Positions 31,682 to 32,261 of a stretch of 64,000 nt of DNA are shown in pieces. Location of the stretch: contig JAJFUV010000260.1 of the NCBI GenBank assembly GCA_021372245.1, positions 1 through 64,000 on the forward strand, given 5' to 3'. Source of the stretch: Terriglobales bacterium (lineage in GTDB: Bacteria > Acidobacteriota > Terriglobia > Bryobacterales > Bryobacteraceae). Positions within the stretch are counted from its first letter, which is position 1, and every line of letters begins with the position of its first letter. Made by a program: the position numbers and the translations under genes. Under the pieces are notes generated by a model. The model made no database searches. It worked only from the letters and a program-made list of their open reading frames with translations, and was not told the DNA's origin.

Positions 31682-31936
31682 TTAGGCGGTAGGTTGTCCG
31701 GCCGGAGCGCTTGCCTGGCCGCCGAAGTTGAACTTGCCCCGTTTGTATTTCTTCTGGAAGCGATCCACACGGCCCTCGGTGTCAATCAACTTCTGACGGC
31801 CCGTGAAGAACGGGTGGCACTTGGAGCAAATTTCCACTCGGATGTCGCCCTTGTGGGCCGAACGAGTGCGGAACGTGGAGCCGCAAGCACAAATCACGTT
31901 AACTTCTTCGTACGGGGGATGGATCCCTGCCTTCAT
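31682..31936 (-). CDS. rpmE: 50S ribosomal protein L31
   Basis: The 84-residue protein starts at ATG 31934-31936 ([20 protein letters not shown]). It has the L31 signature [28 protein letters not shown]. The CAC ... CSKC cysteines are those of the zinc-binding form of L31. A further in-frame extension upstream runs through a promoter and terminator and is rejected. A TATACT -10 element lies at 31974-31979, giving a short leader. The C-terminal [12 protein letters not shown] tail is low-complexity. It is convergent with the Spy-like gene, 18 nt apart. Confidence 0.96.
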
Positions 31937-32005
31937 GGGGTGAAACGATTCCTTTCGTCGAGTGAACGCTACCAGTATAGCACCCGGTACGGCGCAATAG
32001 CAGAA

Positions 32006-32038
32006 CCCCCGCCGCGATTCCAACAATCGCGGCGGGGG
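32006..32038 (-). terminator. Strong terminator hairpin between the small RNA unit and rpmE
   Basis: A perfect 14-bp GC-rich stem (arms 32006-32019 and 32025-32038) with a 5-nt loop. On the minus strand it is followed by TTCTGCTATT, a weak U-tract. It ends the transcript that starts near 32226. Its strength rests on the stem; the U-tract is not classical. Confidence 0.6.
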
Positions 32039-32152
32039 CAAGGTAGCCCAGGGAATTATTCCTGAGGCTCAAGGAATCTCGCCAGGAGAGGCCGTTCCAC
32101 GGGAGCAGCGGCCCGGTCACTGCACGAGGCCTGAACGTTTAGAGCGGTCGAC

Positions 32153-32197
32153 TTAGCTGTCGGCCACCTCCTGGGGGTATTTACTGCCAGAAACCAT
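32153..32197 (-). CDS. 14-codon ORF with exceptional ribosome-binding site
   Basis: ATG 32195-32197 to TAA 32153-32155 encodes MVSGSKYPQEVADS. The AAAGGAGG core ends 12 nt before the ATG and the extended complementarity to 16S rRNA ends 6 nt before it. Within the ORF the codons for Q-E-V-A include AGGAGGTGG, ending 11 nt before the stop codon. The +1 frame continues open for 31 codons past the stop (beginning S-T-A-L-N-V-Q-A-S-C). An internal Shine-Dalgarno match near a stop with an open +1 frame resembles programmed frameshift sites such as prfB, though here the spacing is longer. Translation is inferred. Confidence 0.45.
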   Translation of the reverse strand: MVSGSKYPQEVADS

Positions 32198-32232
32198 TGT
32201 GCTGGACCACCTCCTTTCTCAGTGATGCCTCC

Positions 32233-32261
32233 ATGCTATGCGGAGATCGGTTGGCTGTCAA
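32233..32261 (-). promoter_or_regulatory. Sigma70-type promoter of the small transcript
   Basis: On the minus strand a perfect TTGACA (32256-32261) is followed after 17 nt by TAGCAT (32233-32238). Transcription would begin near 32226, about 30 nt upstream of the short ORF. It is among the strongest matches in the window. Confidence 0.65.

Follow-up and report, generated by a model that had tools for sequence, protein, structure and literature searches.

The question raised by this locus is what a 14-codon reading frame is doing in a transcription unit of its own. The unit lies on the minus strand at positions 32261–32006 of a 64,000-nucleotide stretch from a Terriglobales bacterium (GCA_021372245.1; "the window" below means this whole stretch), where a promoter, a Shine-Dalgarno sequence (SD1), a 14-codon open reading frame (ORF) with an internal second Shine-Dalgarno sequence (SD2), a stop codon, and a terminator stem follow one another, with a structured stretch of ~110 nt between the TAA and the 14-bp GC stem. 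An initial annotation, made from the sequence alone, described an orphan unit with a giant Shine-Dalgarno match, and proposed a programmed +1 frameshift, a regulatory leader peptide, or binding of the 30S subunit. We are highly confident of the anatomy, a micro-ORF that is translated within a conserved, structured relative of Ms_IGR-5 (Rfam RF02471), and evenly divided on the fuller statement that this is a structured small RNA which must be translated to work and is gated by the ribosome. The features of the element are as follows.

32233–32261, minus strand: sigma-70-like promoter, TTGACA-17-TAGCAT, matching 10 of 12 consensus positions
32006–32227, minus strand: predicted small RNA (homology, covariance model, and fold), its start placed at ~32227 from the −10 hexamer
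32219–32224, minus strand: 5′ strand CACTGA, predicted to form a pseudoknot with CAGTG at 32122–32118
32201–32219, minus strand: SD1, AGAAAGGAGGTGGTCCAGC, a near-perfect complement of the 16S rRNA 3′ end
32153–32197, minus strand: micro-ORF, MVSGSKYPQEVADS, 14 codons plus TAA, with frame, start, and stop position kept in at least 140 of 142 loci
32164–32172, minus strand: SD2, AGGAGGTGG, within the ORF, its GAG codon beginning 15 nt before the stop
32162–32174, minus strand: 5′ strand of the SD2 helix, CCAGGAGGTGGCC, from the covariation test
32082–32093, minus strand: 3′ strand of the SD2 helix, GGCCTCTCCTGG, from the covariation test
32110–32131, minus strand: hairpin with CAGTG in its loop, from the covariation test
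32042–32048, minus strand: GGCTACC, anti-SD-like, before the terminator, a putative partner of SD1 in the minimum-energy fold
32006–32038, minus strand: terminator stem, 14 bp and GC-rich, with a weak T tract (GGGGGTTCTG)

The geometry of the ORF carries most of this reading. In every one of 142 distinct loci, the distance from the SD2 GAG to the following stop codon is exactly 15 nt, and an in-frame ATG, GTG, TTG, or CTG follows SD1 in 140; in L007, one of the two exceptions, an in-frame ATG lies just beyond the search range. Between SD1 and SD2, none of 138 loci has a stop in this frame, while the other two frames are interrupted in 106 and 71 of them. Given that the gap between SD1 and SD2 covers all residues modulo 3 (59/44/39), and that ATGs favor the SD2 frame by 78:6, the start codon tracks the frame; consistent with this, ORF length differences within the order (Bryobacterales) are whole codons. 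The identity of the stop is free (82 TAG, 42 TGA, 18 TAA), and SD2 stands at a fixed 8 nt, counted after its AGGAGG-equivalent, from the P-site, an unstrained and initiation-like spacing. As this arrangement is conserved, always in frame, across phyla, a "non-coding" RNA is almost certainly translated, and the micro-ORF appears from its conservation to be under selection both for translation and for fixed termination over the second SD. Independent published support comes from ribosome footprints reported on MS_IGR-5 homologues in two mycobacteria, M. abscessus and M. smegmatis (PMC4974804). The ORF and second SD picked out by the initial annotation both held up, and where it had allowed that the ORF and stems might lack conservation in related genomes, we found the opposite for both.

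The element is conserved far above chance. A nucleotide search placed it in 36 of 61 genomes (the window's own counted), and a covariance model built from 40 order-level homologues detected it in 114 of 120 genomes from the order, almost always once per genome, including a family missed by the nucleotide search. Genomes G509, G502, and G001 are among the few in the order with two model matches. In a wider scan of 84,980 species, using only the shared SD1-gap-SD2 core (AAGGAGGUGGUCC, gap, GAGGUGGYYG) as a pattern without start, stop, or frame, at least 120 stretches were returned, nearly all with the same micro-ORF and with a few estimated by chance. Among the matches listed were Actinomycetota (many classes), Bryobacterales, other Acidobacteriota, Nitrospinae, Zixibacteria, Spirochaetia, Sumerlaeota, and Deltaproteobacteria. 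Within the phylum Acidobacteriota, few genomes have the exact pattern (7 of 396 genomes, against 1 for a reversed-pattern control); it is commoner in Actinomycetota (24 of 198 genomes, control 0), although at least two of these 24 (G593 and G707) look like chance. Individual loci depart from the pattern. In L032, SD2 is degenerate (GAGGTGACC) and separated from SD1 by a long insertion, and the SD1 start enters another short frame; this may be a copy in decay or an artefact of assembly. The order-level loci L037 and L038 keep SD1, the ATG, and the terminator with an altered SD2 (GAGAGGTG and GGAGGGTG, respectively), and provide natural variants for the requirements of SD2.

With regard to family, the initial annotation recognized none, and Rfam scans of the window copy indeed returned no RF02471 (Ms_IGR-5) match at the gathering score or below; nonetheless, RF02471 (membership threshold, covariance-model score ≥45 bits) matches relatives of the element in register. 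L019, a close relative, is matched end to end on the right strand under a permissive threshold (22.3 bits, E 0.11–0.32). Eleven of 20 scanned core-pattern loci reach the cut-off, including one Acidobacterium and one Zixibacterium (55.9 bits, same ORF), and Acidobacteria of other families score 47.7–50.6 bits, with two over the cut-off in the phylum scan. These Acidobacteria loci carry the same ORF, some ending EVPVT, and the actinobacterial loci above the cut-off carry the same in-frame micro-ORF. The window element itself has the anti-16S SD, then GAGGUGG, then an in-frame stop 15 nt after GAG, a definition that is ours and not Rfam's. Like Ms_IGR-5, it is a stand-alone small RNA by its predicted layout, with a 5′ near-complete anti-16S SD, a short gap, GAGGUGGYYG, a stop within a structured segment, and then a terminator. 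On this sequence evidence, we regard the window element as a diverged branch within the RNA group that RF02471 describes. Given that its actinobacterial relatives are already a named Rfam family of unknown function, it is not a new kind from nothing. Expression of Ms_IGR-5 as a small RNA has been reported for mycobacteria and Streptomyces. A match to RF02471 elsewhere in the genome (18.8 bits) lacks SD1 and SD2 and was set aside as chance. In loci of other Acidobacteria families (L169–L178), the ORF ends EV(P/A/V)(V/A/G)(T/P), and a GGAATACC-like segment is kept 5′ of the anti-SD2 strand (compare GCGAATCC in Actinobacteria), which is conserved and apparently unpaired.

The helices of the RNA slip by single-base indels, such that column-based RNAalifold recovered only 10 pairs; we therefore compared the duplex energy of each locus's own two strands with that of strands swapped between species (2000 permutations). 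Within the order, the SD2 helix reached −27.6 kcal/mol with its own strands versus −23.5 kcal/mol swapped, the flank of this helix alone −7.6 versus −5.4 kcal/mol, and the CAGUG hairpin −12.6 versus −9.4 kcal/mol (0/2000 in each case). Outside the order, the SD2 flank pairs with the pre-terminator strand (−10.3 versus −7.6 kcal/mol, 0/2000, for 74 of 111 loci in which a rule could place that strand), and the 5′ end with the pre-SD2 strand (−4.5 versus −2.8 kcal/mol, 0/2000); this second helix shows no covariation in the order (396/2000 permutations). An individual compensation is visible, with GGUGCCUG accompanied by CAGGcCACC, the partner that appears where SD2 has GGUGC in place of GGUGG. 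In the order, the 5′ CACUG may instead pair with the hairpin loop, as CACUG-A occurs with U-CAGU in 29 sequences and CACUG-G with C-CAGU in 4 of 4. Unlike in Ms_IGR-5, then, the 5′ CACUG of the window element is predicted to pair downstream rather than with the pre-SD2 strand, and its SD2 to take a GGCCGCCUC-type partner in place of the pre-terminator CAGUCACC element. Given that the SD2 helices of both branches covary with different partners, SD2 is locked by a downstream strand in both, and the window's branch is rewired.

These observations suggest a mechanism, to which we give somewhat less than an even chance. A 30S subunit would bind SD1, which complements nearly all of the 16S tail. The ribosome would read the short ORF and halt at the fixed site 15 nt after the start of SD2, and SD2, whose spacing from the last sense codon resembles that of initiation, may hold or slow it as it terminates. 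In the free RNA, the SD2 segment is locked in a long-range helix that a ribosome at the stop must open, such that passage and stop, rather than the peptide, would probably switch the RNA from a closed to an open state. This open state would expose downstream, partly anti-SD-like sequence, and the output may act in trans through the exposed 3′ part. A widespread class of such ribosome-gated, trans-acting small RNAs, sensing free ribosomes or termination and recycling without any downstream gene, is a more doubtful proposition.

Several points weigh against this account. The authors of the footprinting study left it open whether such RNAs are truly translated (PMC4974804), and some purifying selection may act on the peptide. 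The permutation tests ignore shared ancestry, yet the pairs recur across phyla. The window copy reaches no Rfam threshold and lacks the helix between the 5′ end and the pre-SD2 strand, so the two branches could work differently. Transcription in this genome is a prediction from sequence, and pausing of the ribosome at SD2, a functional role for refolding, and effects in trans are putative.

A functional peptide is one alternative, whether the RNA is dual-function or a tiny mRNA for a hydrophilic, 9–22-residue peptide ending EVAxx. The perfectly kept reading frame would fit this well, as would the EV(A/V/P) common to several phyla and the recurring Ser/Cys positions. However, amino-acid conservation is weak, and the invariant residues overlap RNA elements: EV(A) is the GAGGUGG of SD2, and in Actinobacteria the RTR/WTC residues correspond to GGAC-CGUG, in which the CGUG can pair with the 5′ end. 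The other residues vary almost freely (codons 4 and 5 from GAG tolerate many amino acids), length varies widely, and the synonymous share of single changes between close pairs is 0.37 in the order and 0.33 elsewhere, against 0.23 expected for random changes when transition bias is ignored. This suggests that selection on the peptide is weak at most; the peptide is probably secondary to the act of translation, and we consider a functional peptide unlikely. Dual-function RNAs such as SgrS/SgrT and RNAIII similarly combine a structured RNA with a small ORF, but the ORF here takes up the 5′ end, and the residues it conserves overlap RNA elements. Less likely again is a sponge or reservoir in which two anti-16S segments hold 30S subunits and the ORF is a by-product, the sense of the initial annotation's third proposal. 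SD1 is nearly complementary to the whole 16S tail and SD2 offers a second site, and 30S binding as such is partly contained in the ribosome-gated account. A sponge needs neither start codon, frame, nor fixed stop, however, and these are among the best-conserved features; SD2 is also locked in a helix, and high abundance would be required.

The remaining two alternatives, transcription attenuation and frameshifting, look to what lies beyond the ORF. The gene next downstream, outside the unit, is as follows.

31682–31936, minus strand: rpmE (ribosomal protein L31), an ORF with an L31-type motif

An attenuation leader for this gene draws on the terminator stem in between and on the presence of rpmE at 210–344 nt downstream in 27 of 46 order-level loci (judged by motif, such that some may be missed). 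The remaining loci have different genes at this place, and in mycobacteria the next gene runs convergently, the RNA there sitting between what we take to be homologues of Rv0812 and of the convergent Rv0813c. No conserved antiterminator was seen, and an extended −10-like TGCTATACT lies just 5′ of rpmE (31974–31982, minus strand); since many order-level loci have it at about this position, rpmE seems to possess a promoter of its own. Attenuator leader peptides of the trp, erm, and cysteine types are alike in having a short ORF whose translation can alter RNA folding, but are tied to a conserved regulated downstream gene, whereas no fixed downstream gene and no regulatory codon run were found here. 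The unit thus appears, from its own promoter and varied downstream genes, to stand alone, as the initial annotation held, while a leader for rpmE is very improbable. For a programmed +1 frameshift micro-protein, the internal SD close to the stop recalls the prfB (RF2) site, and the +1 frame is open in the window, over 32 codons (KSTALN...) rather than the 31 first counted. In 40 order-level homologues, the open length of this frame ranges from 6 to 68 codons, and its conservation is no better than that of frame 0; the stop may be UAG, UGA, or UAA, unlike the UGA of RF2, and the spacing is initiation-like rather than strained at ~3 nt. We give frameshifting virtually no credence.

An RNA family filed as a non-coding actinobacterial small RNA proves, almost certainly, to be a translated one, whose micro-ORF keeps its frame in about seven phylum-level groups, with mycobacteria and Streptomyces among its carriers. 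The constant distance from SD2 to the stop offers a simple hypothesis that can be tested in tractable laboratory species, and it suggests that terminating over an internal SD can be a conserved regulatory event in its own right. Searches of the largely open-access literature turned up no account of the micro-ORF, of the double-SD geometry, of the multi-phylum spread, or of the rewired Bryobacterales branch. Other small RNAs were considered as identities. Ms1 and 6S RNA are likewise small, structured, and actinobacterial, with similar length; neither these nor other Rfam families matched the element, Ms1 is a different locus (PMC9130861), and both Ms1 and Streptomyces Str11 were set aside. A transfer-messenger RNA (tmRNA) was also rejected, with no RF00023 match or tRNA-like domain at the locus and the genome's tmRNA on another contig.

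The signals flanking the ORF largely bear out the initial annotation. The consensus promoter was confirmed (TTGACA at 32261–32256, a 17-nt spacer, and TAGCAT at 32238–32233, minus strand), a pattern scan of the window finding two promoter-like sites versus 0.2 expected, and TTGAC with TAnnnT is seen 5′ of CATCACTG in nearly all homologues of the order. The 14-bp stem, at which we place the predicted RNA end, is likewise present and strong, but its T tract is poor and a terminator pattern scan called none at 32006–32038. Folding of the predicted RNA beats that of shuffled sequences (z = −3.5). GGCTACC-like elements occur in many, though not all, order-level homologues.

The anti-16S match, put at about 14 nt initially, is real and longer. 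The usual bacterial 16S 3′ end is GGCTGGATCACCTCCTTTCT, and SD1 is identical to its reverse complement at 18 of 20 positions; we used this usual end for the comparison, as a search of the assembly for the genome's own 16S 3′ end returned only the window element. The SD1 core GAAAGGAGGTGGTCC (32218–32204, minus strand) is the sole zero-mismatch match in the window, and the exact AAAGGAGGTGGTCC occurs once in the 6.36-Mb genome, in this element. Across the 40 order-level homologues, AGGAGGTG and TCCA are invariant. In the window, CATCACTGAGAAAGGAGGTGGTCCAGCACA directly precedes the ATG (32197–32195, with the TAA at 32155–32153, minus strand). Read on the plus strand, positions 32200–32219 (TGCTGGACCACCTCCTTTCT) resemble the 16S rRNA 3′ end at 18 of 20 positions, so naive searches for 16S 3′ ends will match the element.
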